DNA of 64,000 nucleotides from an uncultured Pseudomonadota bacterium (GCA_913061235.1 CAJXTB010000032.1:1-64000), one strand, 5' to 3'; shown: positions 4,116-56,429, counted from the first letter of the stretch. Notes: generated by a model not told the origin, from the letters alone. Numbers and translations are program-made.

Positions 4116-4970
4116 ATGCAGACGGTTGCAGTCATAGGTGCAGGGACAATGGGACACGGCATTGCGCAGGTCTTCGCAATGGCCAACTACGATGTGACGT
4201 TGGTGGACGCGTCAGAGGCGGCCCTCGACAAGGGCCTCGCGGCAGTCGTTCGCAACCTCGACAAGGGCGTGGACCGCGGAAAGGTGACGGAGGAGCAGCG
4301 CACGAGCACCTTGGCACGGCTCTCCGGAGCGGCCGACCTGGCAGACGCGGTGGAAGACGCGGACCTGGTCATTGAGGCCGTTCCCGAGTCGCTACAGCTC
4401 AAGCAGTCGCTGTTCACACACGCCCAGGCCTCCGCGCCAGACAGCGCCATCTTCGCGACGAACACGTCGTCTCTGTCTGTTGCCAAGATTGCCGGCGTGC
4501 TCGACGACCCCAGTCGCGTCATTGGCATGCACTTCTTCAACCCCGTGCACATCATGGCCTTGCTCGAAGTCGTCGTCGGCGAAGACACCCGTGATGACGT
4601 GCTCAGTGCCGTGAAGACCGCCGGCGAACGCATTGGAAAAGAGGTCATTGTTGTCCGTGACAGCCCCGGATTTGCGACCTCTCGCTTGGGTGTGTGCTTG
4701 GGTATGGAAGCGATTCGCATGGTCGAAGAAGGCGTTGCGAGCCCGGCAGATATCGACAAGGCCATGGTCCTTGGCTACCGCCACCCGATTGGGCCGCTGA
4801 AGCTCACGGACTTGGTCGGCCTGGACGTCCGCATGGCTATTGGCGAGTACCTGGCCAAAGAACTCGGAAATGACGCGTTCACTCCTCCGCAGCTGATGCG
4901 CGAGATGGTGGCCGCTGGAAACGTTGGCAAGAAGTCCGGCAAGGGCTTCTTCGACTGGAGTGCTTCATGA
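4116..4970 (+). CDS. 3-hydroxyacyl-CoA (3-hydroxybutyryl-CoA) dehydrogenase
   Basis: 284 residues, the usual length of single-domain-pair Hbd/PaaH/FadB2 enzymes. The N-terminal Rossmann motif is [15 protein letters not shown]. The family signatures IEAVPE, TNTSSLS and [11 protein letters not shown] carry the active-site region, and the C-terminal helical domain contains DSPGFATSR and [18 protein letters not shown]. It oxidises 3-hydroxyacyl-CoA with NAD(P)+ in the cytoplasm. The start at 4116 has GGAGG upstream. The stop overlaps the next start (ATGA), so it is translationally coupled to the thiolase, its natural next step. The exact chain-length substrate cannot be read from sequence. Confidence 0.93.
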
Positions 4971-39903: not shown

Positions 39904-41157
<1,254 letters not shown>

Positions 41158-44372: not shown

Positions 44373-45047
44373 ATGTTCCTGCTCCTCCTCACCACCCTTG
44401 CGTGTGCTGACGAGGCACCGCCCGACCCAGAGCGTGAGTGGATTGCAGACGGAGACTGGTCCGTCACCGAGTCCGACGTTGAACAGCACGTCATAGACGC
44501 ACTCCTGGCCGCCAATCGTGTGCGCTTTACACAGGTTCAGGCAGAGGGAGACAAACGACTCGCAACCGGTGGCCAAGCGGAGTGGCTGCCCGATGACCTC
44601 TCAAACCTTCAGCCCCTCGGTCACCTTCTCGTGGTGTCGGATGTCACTTGGGCACCCACCCAGCTCGACACGCGCGAGGCCACCAACTCACTATTCGCGG
44701 GTGGCCTTCAGCAGAGCGACCAATGGTCCACAGAGACGGTCGTGTGGGCGGATTCCGCGCGTCAGGTACCTCAATCGGTGGTCATCACCGGCCACCGTTT
44801 GCATGTTGGACGCGGCATGTTCGAATACCAGGATTCCTACCTTTTGGGTTACGAATCGGGCCACGTGACGTCCGTCTACCACGCCTCGTCGCTCGTCATG
44901 GAGGACGGTCCCATGGAGCCGTACGAGACGGTCACGCAGCTGTCGTACACCTCCCTAGGACAGGTAGGAGGGTGGACGACTCTGGACGCGAACAGTCGCC
45001 GTCAACGGGTGGTGACCCTCTTAGAACCACGTATTGGACGACGATAA
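44373..45047 (+). CDS. Small lipoprotein of unknown function
   Basis: 224 residues. Lipobox Cys in LLLLTTLAC right at the N-terminus, then a mostly beta-rich mature part (WIADGDWSVTESDVEQHVID, GHLLVVSDVTWAPTQ, SVVITGHRLHVGRGMFEYQD). No family recognised. GGAG lies six bases before the ATG at 44373; the frame is open well upstream but that would read through the divergent gene. A hairpin follows at 45054. Confidence 0.75.
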   Translation: MFLLLLTTLACADEAPPDPEREWIADGDWSVTESDVEQHVIDALLAANRVRFTQVQAEGDKRLATGGQAEWLPDDLSNLQPLGHLLVVSDVTWAPTQLDTREATNSLFAGGLQQSDQWSTETVVWADSARQVPQSVVITGHRLHVGRGMFEYQDSYLLGYESGHVTSVYHASSLVMEDGPMEPYETVTQLSYTSLGQVGGWTTLDANSRRQRVVTLLEPRIGRR

Positions 45048-45110: not shown

Positions 45111-45743
45111 CTACGGATGAGAACCACAGGGGTTGGCCGGTGGGTCGACCAGGAACGCATCAAAGCAGTCACAGTCGTTTCCGAACAGCTCTCGCGAGCG
45201 ATGCCCCCAGATGGCGCACTCCGAGCCGAAACTCACGTTGTCAGGCTCAGCTTGGATTCGAAACGCAGCGTCGGCGAACAGACCGGACTCAGTGGGCCCC
45301 AGGGCCGTGCAGTCGAGCGTTGTCTGTCCAGCATCACGGCTGTACACCTCCGCTTCGATAAGGGTGTAGCTCCATTGGTCACAGCTACCGTCTTCGCAGA
45401 AGTCGATGTTGGCGCTGACGGGAAACGGGAAGGTCTCTAGGCGGTCGTCATCGCGAGAGGCGTAGACGTCCAGCGTCACGTCAGCAGCCCAGGACTGTAG
45501 ATCGACCACCACCTCAAACTCAGCGACCCCACCCACAACCGTGCACGTAGCCCCAATGCTGTTGACGACGGGGGGCCCTTGCCAGCCCGTCGGGTCGTCA
45601 TCTTCCCACCACTGCGTGTCAGCAGGAGGACGCGGCGGCTGCTCGGCACCCGGTCGGCCCGGTCCCCACCCGAGGTTCTGATTGAGCCACTCGCAACCCG
45701 GCAGAACAACCAAAGCGATAATCAGGGGCAAGCTGGACTTCAT
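45111..45743 (-). CDS. Cys-containing lipoprotein of unknown function
   Basis: 210 residues. Lipobox Cys in LIIALVVLPGC, then a Pro/Gly/Trp-rich linker (GPGRPGAEQPPRPPADTQWW). The mature domain has several Cys (GATCTVVGGVAEF, FCEDGSCDQWSYTL, CDCFDAFLVDPPANPCGSHP), suggesting disulphides. Family not recognised. GGAG precedes the ATG at 45743. Divergent from the glycan-binding gene at 45898. Confidence 0.75.
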   Translation of the reverse strand: MKSSLPLIIALVVLPGCEWLNQNLGWGPGRPGAEQPPRPPADTQWWEDDDPTGWQGPPVVNSIGATCTVVGGVAEFEVVVDLQSWAADVTLDVYASRDDDRLETFPFPVSANIDFCEDGSCDQWSYTLIEAEVYSRDAGQTTLDCTALGPTESGLFADAAFRIQAEPDNVSFGSECAIWGHRSRELFGNDCDCFDAFLVDPPANPCGSHP

Positions 45744-45897
45744 AGGGCTCTCCGGGGTCATTAGAGCATGGTGTTGCCACAGGTTCAACCGAACATGCGC
45801 TCCCACTGTTCGACGGTCTATGCGACGGTCGGTGCCTACGGTCGGTGGGCTGCAATGGAGCGCAGGTGCTAGCATGCGGGCATGCAAGGAGTCTTCC

Positions 45898-47235
45898 GTG
45901 AACCGAGTCATCGCCGCGCTGCCCACCATCGCACTCTTGGCCCTCTCCACCACCGCAGTCGCCGACGAGGTGGTGTGGACCGAGCTTCGCTCACCGGGCG
46001 CCGATTCCACGAGCTACCTCCAGACCAACTGGAATCGCTTCACCGAGAACTACCATCCGACCTACGTCCTGGACGAAGACCCGACAACGGCTTGGATTGA
46101 AGGAGTGGAGGGCAACGGTGAGGGCCAGGTCTTGACTCTCCCCCTCACCCACGTCCGGACCGCGCGTCAGGTCCGCGTGCGCATCCGCAATGGCTACCAA
46201 AAATCGCGTGGCCTGCTCCGCTCGAACGCCGCTCCCAACCAGGTCCGCTTGCGCATGGTGGACGCATCCGGGGCCGTCACCGGACAGGTCGAGACGAGCC
46301 TCGAGAAGGCCATGGGTTGGCAGACCGTGCTCATTCCGATGGAGGGTGGCGGGTTCGACCACCTGGAGATTGAGGTGGTCACCACCCATGACGGCTCGCG
46401 CTACAAAGACACCTGCATCAGCGATGTGCTGGTAGACGTAGACAGCGACGAGCAGTGGTCGCAGCAGGTCGAGCGCGGCCGGCTGCACGTCGCAAAGACG
46501 TGGATTTCGGAGCGGGTGGAAGCCGCGGAATACTTCGCCAACCAACCCAGCGACTACCCATTTATTGCTGCCGGCTACGAGTCGAGCGAGGCCGTGGTTC
46601 AGCCAGCCATCATCGACCAAAAAATGGACGGTCAACGTGTAACTTTCGCCCGAATGCAAGCGCTACCCACGTGGTACGACACGTCTGCGACCAAGACGAT
46701 TACATCCACCGACGGTCTGTGGATGTTGGAAGATGTGCTGCAGGAATTTGCCCCGTACAACCTCGCATGGTTCGAGACGGAGCGGGCCGAGGGCAACCAC
46801 CAAGAAATCCGCATCGACGACGAGGACGGGGGTGAAGGCTGGGTCGTTGGCGAGTCGTGGCGAAGCAACACGAAGATCGAGTGGGCAGACCAAGCAAACA
46901 ACCTGCCGCGCCGATTGTACGTCCGCGTAAAGAATGCGTCGTACGGGCGTGGAACCTCCATCTCGGAGACCGACTATGTCCTGGCCTACAACGACGCGGG
47001 CCGGGTCGCGTCAATGTACACGTCGAGCAATTCGTCGGAGGAAGGCGACGACTCGACGTTCGAGTCGCACTACGTCTTTTCCTACAATGGCGAGGGCAAG
47101 ATTGCCTCGTGGACGCAGTCCACGCGGTCCGTCATTCCGGACTGGTTGACGGAAGTGCAGCAGCCGGACGGTTCAGTCACTCGCGGCACCAAGGTCAGGC
47201 ATTTCGCCTACATCAGCACCGCCATTGGCGGCTAG
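45898..47235 (+). CDS. Exported protein with NADase-type glycan-binding domain (paralogue 1)
   Basis: 445 residues from the GTG at 45898, with AAGGAG six bases upstream. Signal peptide (ALPTIALLALSTTAVA). Residues ~35-170: NYHPTYVLDEDPTTAWIEGV, GEGQVLTLPL and VRVRIRNGYQKSRGLLRSN match the discoidin-like glycan-binding domain first described on streptococcal NADase. The rest (about 180-445) is shared with the next gene and is not recognised; its C-terminus is beta-strand-rich (YVLAYNDAGRVASMYTSS). The next paralogue begins 4 bp after the stop. Confidence 0.83.
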   Translation: MNRVIAALPTIALLALSTTAVADEVVWTELRSPGADSTSYLQTNWNRFTENYHPTYVLDEDPTTAWIEGVEGNGEGQVLTLPLTHVRTARQVRVRIRNGYQKSRGLLRSNAAPNQVRLRMVDASGAVTGQVETSLEKAMGWQTVLIPMEGGGFDHLEIEVVTTHDGSRYKDTCISDVLVDVDSDEQWSQQVERGRLHVAKTWISERVEAAEYFANQPSDYPFIAAGYESSEAVVQPAIIDQKMDGQRVTFARMQALPTWYDTSATKTITSTDGLWMLEDVLQEFAPYNLAWFETERAEGNHQEIRIDDEDGGEGWVVGESWRSNTKIEWADQANNLPRRLYVRVKNASYGRGTSISETDYVLAYNDAGRVASMYTSSNSSEEGDDSTFESHYVFSYNGEGKIASWTQSTRSVIPDWLTEVQQPDGSVTRGTKVRHFAYISTAIGG

Positions 47236-47239
47236 AGCG

Positions 47240-48553
47240 ATGTCTCCAGTTCACCTACTTGCACTGTTGTTGGTCGCGAGCCCGGCTTCCGCCGAAGACG
47301 GCCTCTTTCAGCCACTGCACTCCCCCGACGCACAAGCGACCAGCTACCTGCAGACCAACTGGAATCGGTTCACCGAGAACTACCACCCAACCTACGTGCT
47401 CGACGACAACCCGAACACCGCTTGGGTCGAGGGTGTGGACGGTCTCGGCGAAGGCCAAGTGCTGACGCTGCCGCTGTCGCGCGTGCGTCAGGCAGACGAG
47501 GTCCGGGTGCGTATTCGCAACGGCTACCAGAAGTCTCCGGCCTTGCTGTTGGCAAACGCCGCTCCAGACCTGGTTCGTATTCGCCTGATGGACCGGCAGG
47601 GTGCGGTTGCAGGCGAGGTCGAGGTGAACCTGGCCAAGGCGATGGACTGGCAAGACATCCTCATCTCCGTAGGCGGGCGCGAGTTCGAGCGGTTGCAGCT
47701 CGAGGTGCTGTCGGTCCATGAGGGCAGTCGGTACCGCGACACCTGCATCAGCGATGTGAGGGTGGACGTCCACGGCAGCGGCCCCTACTCGTCCGCCATG
47801 GAGTCAAAGCGGCTCGAGACGGCCAAGACCTGGATTGCCGAGCGTGTCCAGGCGGCGGCCTACTTCGCCTCGCAGCCTGCTGACTACCCGTTCGTGTCCA
47901 ACGCCTTCCACACGGTTGAGACTCAGCAGCACATTGACACCGTCACACCGTTGCTTCAGGCGGCGCGGGTGGATCTGGCCGCTCTGACGAGCAGCTCGGT
48001 GTGGTACCGCTCCTCACGTACCCGGCCTGCAGTGTGGCTGCCCGAGGGAGGAGACGACCTGTCGGCCATTGTGGGCGCGCTGACTACGACGGAACGCGCG
48101 TGGTTTGAAGCCGACGAGCCGATTGCCTCCCACGTCCATGAGGTGGGAGACGGCGACAACGAGGACGACGAATGGTGGGTCTACAACGACCGCATTTCCT
48201 GGGCTGACGAGGCGAAGTCGACTCCCACGCGGGTGCTTGGCTTCCGCAAGGACATCTCCAACGGTCGTGGGCTGTGGGTCCAGGAAACATCGACTCTGCT
48301 GGACTACGACGAGCAAGGACGACTGACGCGCGCCTACATCATCAGCGATAGCCAGAGTGATCTGGACTCGCCATCCATGCACGAACAGCTGTACCAGCTG
48401 GAGTGGAACGGCGCGGATATTGTTGGCTGGACGCTTGCGTATCGGAGTGCAGAACGAGCGTTCTCGATGGAACAGAACACCGAACTTACCTGGTGGATGA
48501 ACGAGGAAATCGCCTCGTACCAATACTCGGACTACCGCCCTGCGACGCCGTAG
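47240..48553 (+). CDS. Exported protein with NADase-type glycan-binding domain (paralogue 2)
   Basis: 437 residues from the ATG at 47240; signal peptide (LLALLLVASPASA). The glycan-binding domain (NYHPTYVLDDNPNTAWVEGV, RVRIRNGYQKSPALLLAN, RYRDTCISDVRVDV) is close to that of the preceding gene, and the later half also aligns (ISWADEAKSTPTRVLGFRKD). Clear tandem duplication. The message continues into the five-haem cytochrome, which overlaps this gene's end by 14 bp if its signal peptide is included. Confidence 0.83.
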   Translation: MSPVHLLALLLVASPASAEDGLFQPLHSPDAQATSYLQTNWNRFTENYHPTYVLDDNPNTAWVEGVDGLGEGQVLTLPLSRVRQADEVRVRIRNGYQKSPALLLANAAPDLVRIRLMDRQGAVAGEVEVNLAKAMDWQDILISVGGREFERLQLEVLSVHEGSRYRDTCISDVRVDVHGSGPYSSAMESKRLETAKTWIAERVQAAAYFASQPADYPFVSNAFHTVETQQHIDTVTPLLQAARVDLAALTSSSVWYRSSRTRPAVWLPEGGDDLSAIVGALTTTERAWFEADEPIASHVHEVGDGDNEDDEWWVYNDRISWADEAKSTPTRVLGFRKDISNGRGLWVQETSTLLDYDEQGRLTRAYIISDSQSDLDSPSMHEQLYQLEWNGADIVGWTLAYRSAERAFSMEQNTELTWWMNEEIASYQYSDYRPATP

Positions 48554-49580
48554 TCTGGTCTTAGTAGCGGTCGTTCTCGGCGGGACCGCGTGGGCGACTG
48601 AGTTGCTCGATCTAGGCTTCTCCCGCGGAGTTTCTGCGGTAGATGAGGACTTCGTATCCGCGGACCGGTGCGCTACTTGCCATGCCGAAGAGCACGCCGC
48701 GTGGAGCACATCCCGACACGCGATTTCCCACAGCAACGACATCTACACACGCGGCCTCATCGACGAGCCGCTGGCCTTCTGCGTGCGCTGCCACAGCCCC
48801 CTACGTGAGCAGGTCGACGAGGTCTTGGCCAACGAGACCTGGTACCGTCAGCAGCATGAACGCTTTCGCGGCCTCGCAACCGCAGAGCGCGCGCCGGAGC
48901 CAATGGCCGACGAGGGCATCACCTGCGTGGTCTGCCACAAGCGCGACGGCGAGATTCTGGCGACGTCGGACTCTGGCCGCTCGCCGCACCGAATCCGCGT
49001 CGAACCCGAGTTTGGCACCGCCGCACTGTGTGGCAACTGCCACGAGTTCGAGATGTTCGCGGTGCGACCCGATGGGCTGCACTTCACCGGCGAGCTGATG
49101 CAGTCCACGTTCACCGAGTGGCAGAGATGGGGCGGTAAGAAGCAGTGCGCCGACTGCCACATGCCCGATGGCGCGCATACCTTCCGAGGTGCCCACGACC
49201 GGGAGTGGCTCCAGCAGAGCATCGAGGTACGCCACAGGCGTGGTCGGCTTCGCATTCGCAGCGTGGGTGTGGGACACGAGCACCCAACCGGCGACCTGTT
49301 CCGCCACATGACTGTCGAGGTGGACTCTGGAACCGGCTTCGAGGACATCTACCGAATCGGCCGAACATTTGAGGTTGTGCATGAGGCCGACACTGTCATC
49401 AAGAAGCTCTCCGGCAACACGTCCTTGATCCCAGGCGAATGGCGAGACATCCCGCTTCCAGATGATGCGATTCGCTGGCGGATTCGGTACCACTACGGCT
49501 CAGAGTATGACGAGTTCCGGGCAATCTTGCCAACGGACGACCTCATGGTCACGCTCGCCGAGGGCGACGTGTCGCGCTGA
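48540..49580 (+). CDS. Five-haem c-type cytochrome
   Basis: 346 residues if read from CTG at 48540. Five CxxCH haem sites: CATCH (44-48), CVRCH (81-85), CVVCH (129-133), CGNCH (164-168), CADCH (203-207), a cytochrome c554-like spacing; the last ~130 residues are haem-free and beta-rich. No ATG, GTG or TTG lies in frame between the stop at 48498 and TTG 48603, yet the translated 48540-48602 stretch is an ideal signal peptide (RRRSLVLVAVVLGGTAWA). Haem attachment needs export, so I take CTG 48540 as start. Periplasmic electron transfer is inferred; partner unknown. Confidence 0.8.
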   Translation: MRRRSLVLVAVVLGGTAWATELLDLGFSRGVSAVDEDFVSADRCATCHAEEHAAWSTSRHAISHSNDIYTRGLIDEPLAFCVRCHSPLREQVDEVLANETWYRQQHERFRGLATAERAPEPMADEGITCVVCHKRDGEILATSDSGRSPHRIRVEPEFGTAALCGNCHEFEMFAVRPDGLHFTGELMQSTFTEWQRWGGKKQCADCHMPDGAHTFRGAHDREWLQQSIEVRHRRGRLRIRSVGVGHEHPTGDLFRHMTVEVDSGTGFEDIYRIGRTFEVVHEADTVIKKLSGNTSLIPGEWRDIPLPDDAIRWRIRYHYGSEYDEFRAILPTDDLMVTLAEGDVSR

Positions 49581-49662
49581 GTCGTCCAGCCCCGCAAGCA
49601 ACGTCAGTAGCCCTCAAGGATGGGTGACCCGCTGGGAGCGCAAGGCGCCTGGCAGCCCGCGT

Positions 49663-51288
49663 CTACTCCACCGCCCGCAGTCCCGGAGCTTCCCGACCTG
49701 TTGAGGTGACGTACTCGTTGTAGTCGCCCAGAAACGGCTTCGGGTCACCCGGGTTGAGCTCCAACACCCGCGTTGCGAGCTGGCGCAAGAAGTCGCGGTC
49801 ATGGCTGACGAAGATGACCGTGCCCTCGTACGCTTTGAGCGCCCTGACCAACATGCGCTTTGTGACGACGTCCAAGTGGTTGGTGGGCTCATCCAAGACC
49901 AACAAGTTGGGAGACGCAAACAGCATCTTACACAACGCCAGTCGGGTCTTCTCACCACCGCTGAGCACGTGAATAGGCTTGTCGACGTCGTCGCCGGTGA
50001 AGCCGAATCCACCCGCGAGGTTCTTCAAGATACCCAGGCCAGTCGCCGGGAACGAACCGACGAGGTCGCCAATGACGGTGTTGTCTCCGCTCAGATTCTC
50101 AGCGTGGTGCTGGGCGAAGTAGGCCATATCAACGGCACTACCAATGCGAACGGTGCCCGCATCCGGGTCCGTCACACCCGCAATCATGCGCAATAGAGTG
50201 CTCTTACCAGCCCCATTTTCGCCCATGATGGCCCAGCGTTCACCGCGGCGGATGAGCAGGTTCAGACCGTCATGCACCACCACGTCTCCGTAGTGTTTGC
50301 TCAGCCCCTTCATGCTGACGACTTCGTCTCCAGAGCGTGAGCACGCAGCCAGGGCAAAGTCGCGCTCGACATGACGCTTGGGTTCTTGAATACGCTCAAT
50401 CTTCCCCACCATCTTGGCGCGGCTCTGTACCGCCGATGACTTGCTCGGTTGACCGCGAAAACGTTCGATGAAGCGCATCTCTTTGGCAAGCATGGCTTGT
50501 TGGCGTGAGTACTCGGCTTCGTGCTTGACTGCGAGCTCGGCACGCTGGGCATCGTAGAAGTCGTAGTCGCCGCTGTAGCTACGGATAGCGCCGCCATCAA
50601 TCTCCACAATGCGCGACACAACGCGGTTCATGACGTCGCGGTCATGGCAGGTCATGACCACCGTCCCCGGGTAGTCTTGCAGGAACTGTTCGAGCCACAG
50701 AATGGACTCAATGTCCAAGTGGTTGGTGGGCTCATCGAGCAGCAGAACCTCGGGACGCTTGAGCAGCACCTGTGCCAAGGCCACACGCATCTTCCAACCG
50801 CCAGAGAGTGCGTCGATCTGTCCTTCGATCTGCGAGGCACTCAGCCCAAGCCCCGCCAAGACACGCGCTGCTCGCGCTTCGAGGTCGTAGCCGCCGAGCA
50901 TGCTGAACTGGTCTTGCACGTCTCCAAAGCGGTCGAGCACCTTGTCGTAGTCGTCTGCGTCGACATCACCCAGGCGGTCTTCCAGGTGAGCGAGCTCTAC
51001 GCGCAGATCTGCGATGAGACCCGCGCCCTGGATGGTCTGCTCAAGCGCGCTGACGCCGGACCAGTCGCCTACTTCCTGACGAAAGTAGCCTGTGGTCAGC
51101 TTCTTAGGACGCTCAACGCTGCCTTCGTCGACCGTCTCTTCGCCTTCGATGAGTCTGAAGATGGTCGACTTTCCAGCGCCGTTTGGACCCACGAGTCCAA
51201 TCTTGTTGCCGGGGTCGATCTGGAAGCTGGCGTCGACGAACAACACCTGCGAACCATACTGCTTGGTGACTTTGGAGAAACTAATCAT
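49663..51288 (-). CDS. ABC-F family ATPase
   Basis: 541 residues with two complete ABC domains and no membrane segment. Domain 1: GLVGPNGAGKST, LSGGWKMRVALA, LLLDEPTNHLD; domain 2: IMGENGAGKST, LSGGEKTRLALC, LVLDEPTNHLD. The linker between has a charged helical arm (HEAEYSRQQAMLAKEMRFIE). ABC-F proteins of this YbiT/Uup-like kind work on ribosomes. The ribosome site before the ATG is weak. Convergent with the cytochrome gene. Confidence 0.94.
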   Translation of the reverse strand: MISFSKVTKQYGSQVLFVDASFQIDPGNKIGLVGPNGAGKSTIFRLIEGEETVDEGSVERPKKLTTGYFRQEVGDWSGVSALEQTIQGAGLIADLRVELAHLEDRLGDVDADDYDKVLDRFGDVQDQFSMLGGYDLEARAARVLAGLGLSASQIEGQIDALSGGWKMRVALAQVLLKRPEVLLLDEPTNHLDIESILWLEQFLQDYPGTVVMTCHDRDVMNRVVSRIVEIDGGAIRSYSGDYDFYDAQRAELAVKHEAEYSRQQAMLAKEMRFIERFRGQPSKSSAVQSRAKMVGKIERIQEPKRHVERDFALAACSRSGDEVVSMKGLSKHYGDVVVHDGLNLLIRRGERWAIMGENGAGKSTLLRMIAGVTDPDAGTVRIGSAVDMAYFAQHHAENLSGDNTVIGDLVGSFPATGLGILKNLAGGFGFTGDDVDKPIHVLSGGEKTRLALCKMLFASPNLLVLDEPTNHLDVVTKRMLVRALKAYEGTVIFVSHDRDFLRQLATRVLELNPGDPKPFLGDYNEYVTSTGREAPGLRAVE

Positions 51289-51312: not shown

Positions 51313-52737
51313 TCAGTGGGCTTGGCTTGCTAGATTCACGACTTCTGCCGCAGAGAGTGGGCGGTCGTAGATGTACAGCTCGTCCACATCTCCGGAGTAC
51401 GGCTCCGTGCTCACGGCGTTGCCCAGTGTGAGCGCGGTGGGGTCCGTCCTAGGATTCCAATCCACGGTCTGGGTGTGGATGACAACACCGTCTAGGTAGG
51501 CGGTCCACTGACCATTGCCTTGGACCATGGCCACATGGTGCCACTGGTTCTGCGCGAGGTACAGGTTCTGGCTCGCTACCTGACCCGAGGGGCCCCGTGT
51601 GACGACACCCAACCGTGTGCCGCTGGACTCACGACCAAAGCGCATCTCAAAGCTGCCGGAGTTGAAGTAGCCGTTGGAGACAACGCCCCGGTAATCGCCC
51701 GCTCTCCCGCTCCACCGAATCCACAGCGCGACGGACAGTCCGTTTGCCCACGACTGATTGGCGGTGGACGGTACATGGTAGGTGGATGACCCGTTGAAGT
51801 AGGCCCAACCCGAGCTGTAGTCGACGGTTCCGGTGCGGGCGAGGCCGTCATTTCCGTTGCCCGCGTCATCATTGAGTGGGTCTGCGGGGTTGTTGTAAGA
51901 ATGATGCACAACGCCGGTCAACAGAGGCGCGCACACCGATGGAGTGCCGGCATCACCGGTGGAGTCTTTGAACACCTCGCCGCGAACAACACGCGCTCCC
52001 GCCGGCACGACCGCTCCCGGAGCAATCTCCGCATTGGCACGAATCACCGCGCCGGTGCCAATCACCGCACCAGCCCCCACGGTCACACCTCGGCCCACCT
52101 TGGCGCCCGCTAGAATGCGCGACCGGTCGTACACCGTGCTCTGCTTACGAAGCCGTACATCAGGCTCCAAGCACACCGAATCGTGAATGCGAACGTCCGG
52201 CCCAATCACGCCGTCCAAATCCGAGCGCTCACCGACCTGTACACCCCGAGCGAGCACGGTACCGTCCGCAATCTCAACGTCCACATCGATAGAGGCGACC
52301 GAGCCAATCACGACCTGATCACCAACAATCGCGTCTGCACCGAGCGCCGAGGCGTAGCCCAGATGAAGTCCGTTTCCGACGGCACTCCGAGCGCCGACTT
52401 CCGCGCTGCGTGCCACAGTGACGTCGTTGCCAACCTGGGCATCCTCACCAATGACCGCCGACCGCCCCACAATGAAGTCGGTCCCCGCCGTAGTAATCGG
52501 AGCGCCCGATGAGCTGCCGTGAACGGTTGCTCGTGGGGCAATCACAGCACCCGCGCCGAAGCTGACGCCGTGACCGACCAACGCGCGACTGCCCACAGAG
52601 GAGTCCGTCCCCAGCGACTCCGTAGTGAGGACCGTGGCATCCGCGTGCACACAGGCCTGCGCAAAGTCTGGGTCACAGTCCTGGGCCGAAGCCACGCCGG
52701 GTACACTCAACGCCGCAAGTCCGAGCCACCTAAACAT
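51313..52737 (-). CDS. Exported left-handed beta-helix protein with LamG-like head
   Basis: 474 residues. Signal peptide (LAALSVPGVASA), a short Cys motif (DCDPDFAQACVHADATV), then hexapeptide repeats to about 265 (VGRSAVIGEDAQVGNDVTVA). The head from about 290 is a concanavalin/LamG-like domain (GLSVALWIRWSGRAGDY, QWHHVAMVQGNGQWTAYLDG, GDVDELYIYDRPLSAAEV), the common carbohydrate-binding fold of exported proteins. It is the same plan as the other beta-helix proteins but with another head. GGGGAGGGG precedes the ATG. Confidence 0.88.
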   Translation of the reverse strand: MFRWLGLAALSVPGVASAQDCDPDFAQACVHADATVLTTESLGTDSSVGSRALVGHGVSFGAGAVIAPRATVHGSSSGAPITTAGTDFIVGRSAVIGEDAQVGNDVTVARSAEVGARSAVGNGLHLGYASALGADAIVGDQVVIGSVASIDVDVEIADGTVLARGVQVGERSDLDGVIGPDVRIHDSVCLEPDVRLRKQSTVYDRSRILAGAKVGRGVTVGAGAVIGTGAVIRANAEIAPGAVVPAGARVVRGEVFKDSTGDAGTPSVCAPLLTGVVHHSYNNPADPLNDDAGNGNDGLARTGTVDYSSGWAYFNGSSTYHVPSTANQSWANGLSVALWIRWSGRAGDYRGVVSNGYFNSGSFEMRFGRESSGTRLGVVTRGPSGQVASQNLYLAQNQWHHVAMVQGNGQWTAYLDGVVIHTQTVDWNPRTDPTALTLGNAVSTEPYSGDVDELYIYDRPLSAAEVVNLASQAH

Positions 52738-54903: not shown

Positions 54904-55503
54904 TCACTGACTCGGACGCTGGCTTCCAGACGCCGCACGCTCTGTGCGCTCTTCCGACGACAGCTCGCCGTCTTCATCTATGTCGAAGTACAGAGCAGAG
55001 GCGTCTCCGACGGACTGTGCCAGGGTGTCGTGTAGCGGACTTCCCGGCTCCACGTCCGACAGGGGTTGCGCCAGCTCGAGCCACGACGGAAACGCAAGTT
55101 CGGCAACGTAGCCGTCTCCGTGGGCGTGTAGATCCACATCTTCGGGGACCAGTCGGACCTCGGGTACCGTGAGCTGCAGACGGACCGTACGCCCATCGTC
55201 TGCGATGCCTTGGTAGCGAATGTCCCCCCCGAAATGAAGGGTGACACGGCGCCAGTCCCCTTCAGGTATCTCCAAGCTATCGTTCCCCAGCAAGTCGAAC
55301 GTTTCGCCAACGTTGGTCCGAAACACGTTTCCGTCGTCATCGCGAACGCCAACTCCGTTGAGTCGAACCTGGCCCGATGTCAGCGTGATTCCTGCACTTC
55401 GTGCCGTGGTGATGGTCGTCAGGCTGGGGTTGCCCACGCTGATGCCTTCATGAACGGTTTCAGCGGAACACGCTGCGAGAATTATCAGGAGCAAACATCT
55501 CAT
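54904..55503 (-). CDS. Lipoprotein with EF-hand-like C-terminus
   Basis: 199 residues. Lipobox Cys12 (LIILAAC), a beta-rich domain (ITLTSGQVRLNGVGVRD, WRRVTLHFGGDIRYQG) reminiscent of DUF4382-type lipoproteins, and near the end DIDEDGELSSEE, which looks like a calcium loop. The start overlaps the TIGR02147 stop by 4 bp, so the two are one operon. A surface lipoprotein is inferred. Confidence 0.75.
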   Translation of the reverse strand: MRCLLLIILAACSAETVHEGISVGNPSLTTITTARSAGITLTSGQVRLNGVGVRDDDGNVFRTNVGETFDLLGNDSLEIPEGDWRRVTLHFGGDIRYQGIADDGRTVRLQLTVPEVRLVPEDVDLHAHGDGYVAELAFPSWLELAQPLSDVEPGSPLHDTLAQSVGDASALYFDIDEDGELSSEERTERAASGSQRPSQ

Positions 55504-56354
55504 CCATCACTCCGACGCGACAACGGGAACAGCTGCATGTTGAACTGGTAGACCTCTTCCGCAGGGGCCTCACTCGCATCACACAGGTTGAGAATATGCT
55601 CCTGAAACCGCGCGAGCTCCTGTTTTAACTCGGGAACCAGCGAACGAGGGATTGCCGCGGTCACCGCCCCCAAGTGCCGCGCGTCCGACGCCGTGCGCTC
55701 CATGCTCTGTGCCCCCAACGCAATCATGCCCTGGTGGTAGTTGTGCACGGCCAGCTGTCCAGCCTCGTGTGGGGTGGTCAGGCTGACATTCGTAGGCTCG
55801 ACCCGACTGTCCGCGTGACGAACCAGCAACCCAAGCTCGAAGAGAAGGTCCAAGGCGTGTTGGGCGTCCGATTCATCAATCTGAGGCACCAAGTGTGCAG
55901 CGACCCACGACGCCGATGCTTCAAACTCCGGCAAGCGAGCCAGCTCATGTGTGGCGGCCACCCACCACGTGGAGAGCAGCTCGAAGGCTCCCATTTCGAG
56001 GGGCCGTGCATCGCGAAAGCGGCGCGTGGCGGCGATCGCAGCCCAAATGCTATTGCGCTTTTCATCGCTGGCGGCGGCCTCGAACTCGACGATGAGTCGG
56101 AAGAACATCGCGTCATCGTCGTCGAGGTTGAGCGCGCTCACCACACCGTCCATTGTACGATCGGTGAGGTTGCGTTTGCCTTGCATCACCAGCAGGAGCA
56201 GGCTTGGATTGGATAGGCCCGCCCTTCGGGCGAACAGACGATGGCTGTATCGTGGGTTTACCTGCTGCTTATGGCTAAACCAATCGGACAGAAAGGTCCG
56301 ATGATTCAAGTAGTCGAACACACAGGGCGGCGTGGCGTCGGTGGCAGGCTTCAT
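55500..56354 (-). CDS. TIGR02147 family protein
   Basis: 284 residues. N-terminal FDYLNHRTFLSDWFSHKQQ and YSHRLFARRAGLSNPSLLLL are typical of TIGR02147 proteins, whose N-terminus looks like a helix-turn-helix; members are abundant in Fibrobacteres and deltaproteobacteria and usually sit beside a lipoprotein, as here. C-terminal: LKQELARFQEHILNLCDASE. Regulation of the adjacent lipoprotein is inferred. The ATG at 56354 has AAGGAT some distance upstream, so the start is moderately certain. Confidence 0.85.
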   Translation of the reverse strand: MKPATDATPPCVFDYLNHRTFLSDWFSHKQQVNPRYSHRLFARRAGLSNPSLLLLVMQGKRNLTDRTMDGVVSALNLDDDDAMFFRLIVEFEAAASDEKRNSIWAAIAATRRFRDARPLEMGAFELLSTWWVAATHELARLPEFEASASWVAAHLVPQIDESDAQHALDLLFELGLLVRHADSRVEPTNVSLTTPHEAGQLAVHNYHQGMIALGAQSMERTASDARHLGAVTAAIPRSLVPELKQELARFQEHILNLCDASEAPAEEVYQFNMQLFPLSRRSDG

Positions 56355-56429
56355 GACGATGTCTATCCTTGCCAGTGTTGGCCCGTAGATGCCCATTCAT
56401 ACACTGTATTCGCTGTGAATACGGACGGT

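Follow-up and report, generated by a model that had tools for sequence, protein, structure and literature searches.

Exported carbohydrate binding and a c-type cytochrome are combined in Cbp2D and Cbp2E of Cellvibrio japonicus (PMC8981238, PMC12542752), where a small cytochrome domain lies in one chain with other domains (CBM-cytochrome). In the streptococcal NADase, Tyr120, Tyr121, Tyr151 and His177 were reported for sugar recognition (PMC9887584); the four residues are reported for that protein and do not define the PF25302/NF047619 family, to which the translocation domain of the Streptococcus pyogenes NAD-glycohydrolase (7ji1) belongs. On the cytochrome side, the penta-haem c552 of Thermochromatium tepidum (5ze8) carries five c haems and a C-terminal beta (Ig-like) domain. 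We describe here a locus in which both kinds of protein are encoded side by side. Both halves are known families; the literature searched yielded nothing on their pairing, nor on NF047619 or MccSep.

The window, that is, the whole stretch of DNA analysed, is 64,000 nucleotides long; its phylum is taken as Myxococcota, to which the NCBI lineages assign two related records (L053, L054). The initial annotation had described two exported paralogues (here proteins A and B) 4 bp apart and running into a five-haem cytochrome. Gene calls, profile matches and the count of five CXXCH motifs in the product of the third gene agreed with that description. A signal peptide is present in both A and B. The tight packing was likewise borne out: with a 4 bp gap and a 14 nt overlap, the three genes form one translationally overlapping unit. 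A promoter and terminator scan of 45600-49750, uninformative for this organism, gave no sigma70-consensus promoter on the + strand and no terminator.

Table 1. Features of the three-gene unit (45898-49580, +) and its upstream region; positions are those of the window.
Feature	Position	Strand	Remarks
Stand-alone exported C-terminal module	44373..45047	+	third paralogue, upstream; lacks a discoidin domain
Lipoprotein gene	about 45111-45743	opposite strand	between the stand-alone module and the operon
Divergent intergenic region, 154 bp	45744..45897	.	5' of the operon, whose promoter is expected here
Exported NADase-type discoidin protein A	45898..47235	+	GTG start, 445 aa; signal peptide, discoidin domain, C-terminal module
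C-terminal module of protein A	46468..47232	+	no Pfam family
Exported NADase-type discoidin protein B	47240..48553	+	ATG start, 437 aa; layout as in protein A
C-terminal module of protein B	47798..48550	+	two predicted helices, then ~9 antiparallel strands
Five-haem c-type cytochrome	48540..49580	+	signal peptide, C-terminal Ig-like domain; probable CTG start
MQ-x-T-x-x-E-W motif (Met187 to Trp194)	49098..49121	+	inside the cytochrome gene

The cytochrome frame can be extended upstream, with no stop codon in between, as far as a CTG at 48540 (LRRRSLVLVAVVLGGTAWA...). In contig C14 of the same genome, the paralogous cytochrome has its GTG start at the aligned position, and in both operons the cytochrome gene shares its first 14 nt with the end of the gene upstream. 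A mechanically called TTG start at 48603 was rejected, as it would remove the signal peptide. The TTG lies behind the signal peptide, and the CTG is the likely start of the cytochrome. CTG is a rare start codon, here possibly used under translational coupling; the paralogous operon has GTG.

Elsewhere in the window, 51313-52737 (-) encodes an exported protein in which a left-handed beta-helix (hexapeptide repeats) is unusually paired with a lectin-like domain, Laminin_G_3. A lipoprotein at 39904-41157 (-) joins a DT-repeat linker (DTDTDTDTDT) to an alpha/beta hydrolase of the PETase/PAF-acetylhydrolase type. At 55500-56396 (-), a DUF4423-domain protein, probably a regulator of the TIGR02147 type, adjoins a small lipoprotein gene (54904-55503).

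Proteins A and B matched PF25302 (NADase_transloc) with 64 and 68 bits (cut-off 27) and NF047619 (NADase_discoid) with 86 and 87 bits (cut-off 38). They share 45% identity over 404 aa, C-terminal halves included. The discoidin domain of protein A covers about residues 37-179. An AlphaFold model of protein B (mean pLDDT 74) showed the discoidin/F5-8C jelly-roll fold; in a structure search it matched 7ji1 (E 4.8e-4), and also CBM32, lectinolysin and muskelin (Z about 10), galactose-oxidase and lectin domains. When the streptococcal residues were mapped, through a weak alignment (E 0.05), the Tyr120 site was Leu in 17 of 17 discoidin proteins, the Tyr121 and Tyr151 sites held no conserved Tyr, and His177 was kept in part. 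The label 'glycan-binding' given by the initial annotation follows the family name. Glycan binding by these proteins is possible. Most members carry a plain cleavable signal peptide. A lipobox was found in four linked proteins, namely two partners (G059, G313) and two cytochromes (G140, G301). The lipoboxes place the system in the envelope; they do not tell the side of the outer membrane, and the surface-bound assembly suggested by the initial annotation would be one possibility.

The C-terminal halves, which the initial annotation had left unassigned, indeed matched no Pfam model. In the full-length model of protein B, the second part consists of two helices followed by roughly nine antiparallel strands; the module was predicted only inside the full protein, and the discoidin domain filled the matches of the structure search. 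The stand-alone module upstream of the operon was matched at the protein level over 44478-44993, with 72 bits for the module profile. It has a possible lipobox (TTLAC) and is separated from the operon by the lipoprotein gene of the other strand.

The product of the third gene matched PF22113, the MtrC/MtrF pentahaem domain, with 45 bits (cut-off 30). Its predicted model had a mean pLDDT of 59, low in the haem domain and much better in the C-terminal domain. Foldseek placed the model closest to 5ze8 (E 1.2e-8), far above all other solved structures, and VIA-align superposed residues 39-346 on 5ze8 with a Z of 13.3 (253 residues, rmsd 4.8). Both 5ze8 and MccSep, a selenoprotein, were matched by a nine-sequence profile at E values of about 1e-12. 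All 17 linked cytochromes that were aligned have five CXXCH motifs. The cytochrome was shown to be of the penta-haem c552/MtrC-domain type with an Ig-like C-terminal domain.

The pairing of the two families was followed through related genomes. In the host genome (7.2 Mb), a second such operon, with one discoidin gene and one cytochrome, lies in C14. Four cytochromes used as queries against public genomes retrieved five loci, and an order-wide search added more. All nine cytochromes closest by sequence have a discoidin or C-module neighbour. The order is discoidin to cytochrome in the host's own two operons, G059 and L054, and cytochrome to discoidin in G019, G052 and G053; in G044 the two genes are convergent. 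L054 is also tandem, its second discoidin copy being frameshifted; the frameshifted gene (about 4263-4775, +) lies between the intact copy and the cytochrome and is apparently a decaying tandem copy. A discoidin-only search of the class and phylum gave eight more evaluable genes, forming a second clade (G038, G033, G028, G140, G157, G301, G108, G313), and here a five-haem cytochrome adjoins on the same strand in 8 of 8 with a spacing of -4 to +32 nt. Over all same-strand pairs measured, the spacing was -14 to +38 nt. Two more genes above 130 bits (G019 C280, G313 C14) were not judged, the sequence ending too early.

After the rule had been formed, two class searches were run as a follow-up. 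They gave six new genes, and 4 of the 4 judgeable ones adjoin a cytochrome, one of these cytochromes being cut by a contig end; the remaining two genes were cut off by contig ends and not judged. In all, 21 of 21 evaluable discoidin genes of this subtype, at 20 loci in Myxococcota, adjoin a five-haem cytochrome: nine at eight loci in the first clade (taking only the intact copy in L054), eight at eight in the second, and four at four in the follow-up. Among discoidin genes below 100 bits, the host's other copies included, a multihaem gene within about 5 kb was found for 0 of 10. Plasmid and viral collections gave no relatives. A neighbourhood recurring at 20 loci is more than chance, and the conservation whose absence the initial annotation had named as speaking against the grouping was found together with changed gene order. 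The pairing was shown to persist where the gene order differs and where the partner is present in a different number of copies. Judged from these comparisons, the discoidin-cytochrome pair is a real conserved unit of Myxococcota, a predicted two-protein redox unit.

Partner and cytochrome distances were correlated over 16 loci (r=0.90; 0.63 and 0.86 within the clades), a mirror-tree correlation that is partly explained by shared species history. Such correlated identities, and the fact that all cases lie in one phylum, would suit a neighbourhood inherited by descent with no functional link. We regard this as very improbable: adjacency stays while gene order shuffles, pairs at about 27-31% identity are still adjacent, flanking genes are not conserved, and the partner changes in a sister clade, as described below.

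One further locus, G016, is the 21st and stands outside the count of 20 discoidin loci. It has two C-modules, without a discoidin domain, in front of the cytochrome. Since modules and cytochrome are present there and the discoidin domain is not, discoidin docking cannot be essential everywhere. From G016 it had been supposed that the discoidin domain is merely optional; this was dropped as a general rule once the second clade was found. Profile comparison with hhalign showed the C-modules of both clades to be homologous (probability 94%, E 1.5e-7), and the C-module together with the cytochrome is what every case keeps.

The linked cytochromes fall within a group of 28 members. Within the same group, the non-discoidin cytochromes of G053, G052, G058, G056, G044 and G013 adjoin a different exported protein, which begins with a weak FG-GAP match and ends in a bacterial SH3-like part; neither reaches its Pfam cut-off. 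This partner was present in 6 of the 6 loci that could be judged in that subgroup, so it seems that each cytochrome of the group is accompanied by an exported partner of its own, with a binding domain that differs between cytochrome subgroups. Non-discoidin five-haem cytochromes adjoining an exported FG-GAP-like/SH3-like protein are seen in L119, L120, L121, L122, L135 and L030. No carbohydrate-binding-module family was found in the sister partner.

Strict pairing, overlapping genes and the exchange of partners between cytochrome subgroups might also be expected if the partner were a dedicated chaperone for maturation or export of the cytochrome, with no standing complex between them. However, c-type cytochromes mature through the general Ccm/Ccs machinery, and the tandem duplication of the partner per cytochrome and the partners with a lipobox fit a structural role better. 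We consider a chaperone improbable.

The sister partner also bears on a polysaccharide-directed redox function, in which the discoidin domain would bind an external polysaccharide and the cytochrome would feed an oxidative enzyme, like Cbp2D/Cbp2E with LPMOs. CBM-cytochrome proteins reducing LPMOs are known, and CBM32, galactose-oxidase and lectin domains are among the matches of the discoidin fold. On the other hand, no third gene is conserved across the linked loci, and genes for an LPMO, an oxidase or a glycoside hydrolase in particular do not recur next to the pair; by the weak alignment the tyrosines of sugar recognition are not kept, and the sister partner is without a CBM family. Such a function appears unlikely.

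Outside the CXXCH motifs, the only invariant histidines in the 17 linked cytochromes are His60, His150, His213 and His246, and all four are common to most or all of 32 unlinked relatives. Met187 is invariant in 17 of 17 linked cytochromes and in 3 of 3 new full-length ones; it is present in 2 of the 32 unlinked relatives and replaced in the other 30. G352, which is unlinked and near the linked cytochromes, also has the Met. The sequence Q-x-T-x-x-[EQ]-[WF] right after the Met187 site is common to most rows of the alignment and anchors it, so misalignment is an unlikely cause of the pattern. We infer Met187 to be a candidate ligand of the fifth haem. An IQ-TREE phylogeny resolved the linked cytochromes into two well supported clades within the 28-member group. 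On this tree the linked label has to change twice, and the AU test does not reject one common linked clade (p-AU 0.22). The Met may then have been inherited, or have arisen convergently, and have nothing to do with the pairing.

The same residues bear on whether the cytochrome is itself catalytic, a small-molecule reductase of the NrfA or MccA type with the partner as a stability subunit. Relatives in the profile searches do include nitrite reductases, MccA and MccSep. Yet the four invariant non-motif histidines and Met187 could between them supply the sixth ligand of every haem, and a catalytic signature such as the CXXCK of NrfA is absent, all five motifs being CXXCH; no NCBIfam model scored above its cut-off. 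A reductase is accordingly given a low probability, similar to that of the polysaccharide-directed function.

As the best explanation, to which we give an even chance, we propose that an exported protein for electron transfer is held in place in the cell envelope by a binding partner dedicated to it. Cytochrome and partner would associate outside the cytoplasm, with the partner as the positioning subunit: its discoidin domain would probably dock to a carbohydrate of the envelope or outside the cell, and its C-terminal module would probably dock it to the cytochrome. The cytochrome would move electrons from a periplasmic donor to an acceptor at the docking place. In the discoidin-linked subtype, Met187 would be the likely sixth ligand of one haem, with His60, His150, His213 and His246 serving the other four. 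Ligation by Met187 and four His would give a carrier with all haems six-coordinate and one haem of raised potential, and not a reductase with an open haem site. More tentatively, these cytochromes may belong to a modular family of envelope-anchored penta-haem carriers in Myxococcota, each subtype having its own non-haem docking protein, either discoidin with C-module or FG-GAP/SH3, in which the discoidin subtype would be tuned by His/Met ligation and would provide a carbohydrate-addressed electron route outside the cytoplasm.

Relatives of the myxobacteria encode many exported cytochromes of unknown use. Partner exchange and the Met marker offer handles on how electron carriers are placed outside the cytoplasm in these organisms, and the conserved pairing yields a prediction, open to experiment, for proteins that so far carry just the names 'NADase-type glycan-binding domain-containing protein' and 'multihaem cytochrome c'.

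The locus can be set beside the described systems as follows. Proteins A and B are of the same family as the translocation domain of the S. pyogenes NADase by curated profiles and by fold, but they are without the NADase catalytic domain, do not keep the recognition tyrosines as far as the weak alignment shows, and have the discoidin domain fused to the C-terminal module. The cytochrome shares with the c552 of T. tepidum, besides the domain layout, an H-x-x-PTG...FRN motif (profile E 1e-12); identity is about 20%, and 5ze8 has Leu where Met187 aligns. MtrC/OmcA (pentahaem domains II/IV) and MccSep (9wt8) are of the same pentahaem domain family (PF22113). Compared with the decahaem MtrC/OmcA, there are five haems and not ten, in one pentahaem domain and not two; no MtrAB-type third gene is conserved, nor does a conserved porin or MtrA-like gene adjoin. 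The initial annotation had found electron transfer beside glycan binding an unfamiliar combination, for which Cbp2D of Cellvibrio is a precedent (PMC8981238, PMC12542752). Because Cbp2D/Cbp2E join a cytochrome and carbohydrate binding in another form, the pairing described here is a variant of a known combination, one with separate genes, five haems and unrelated domains.
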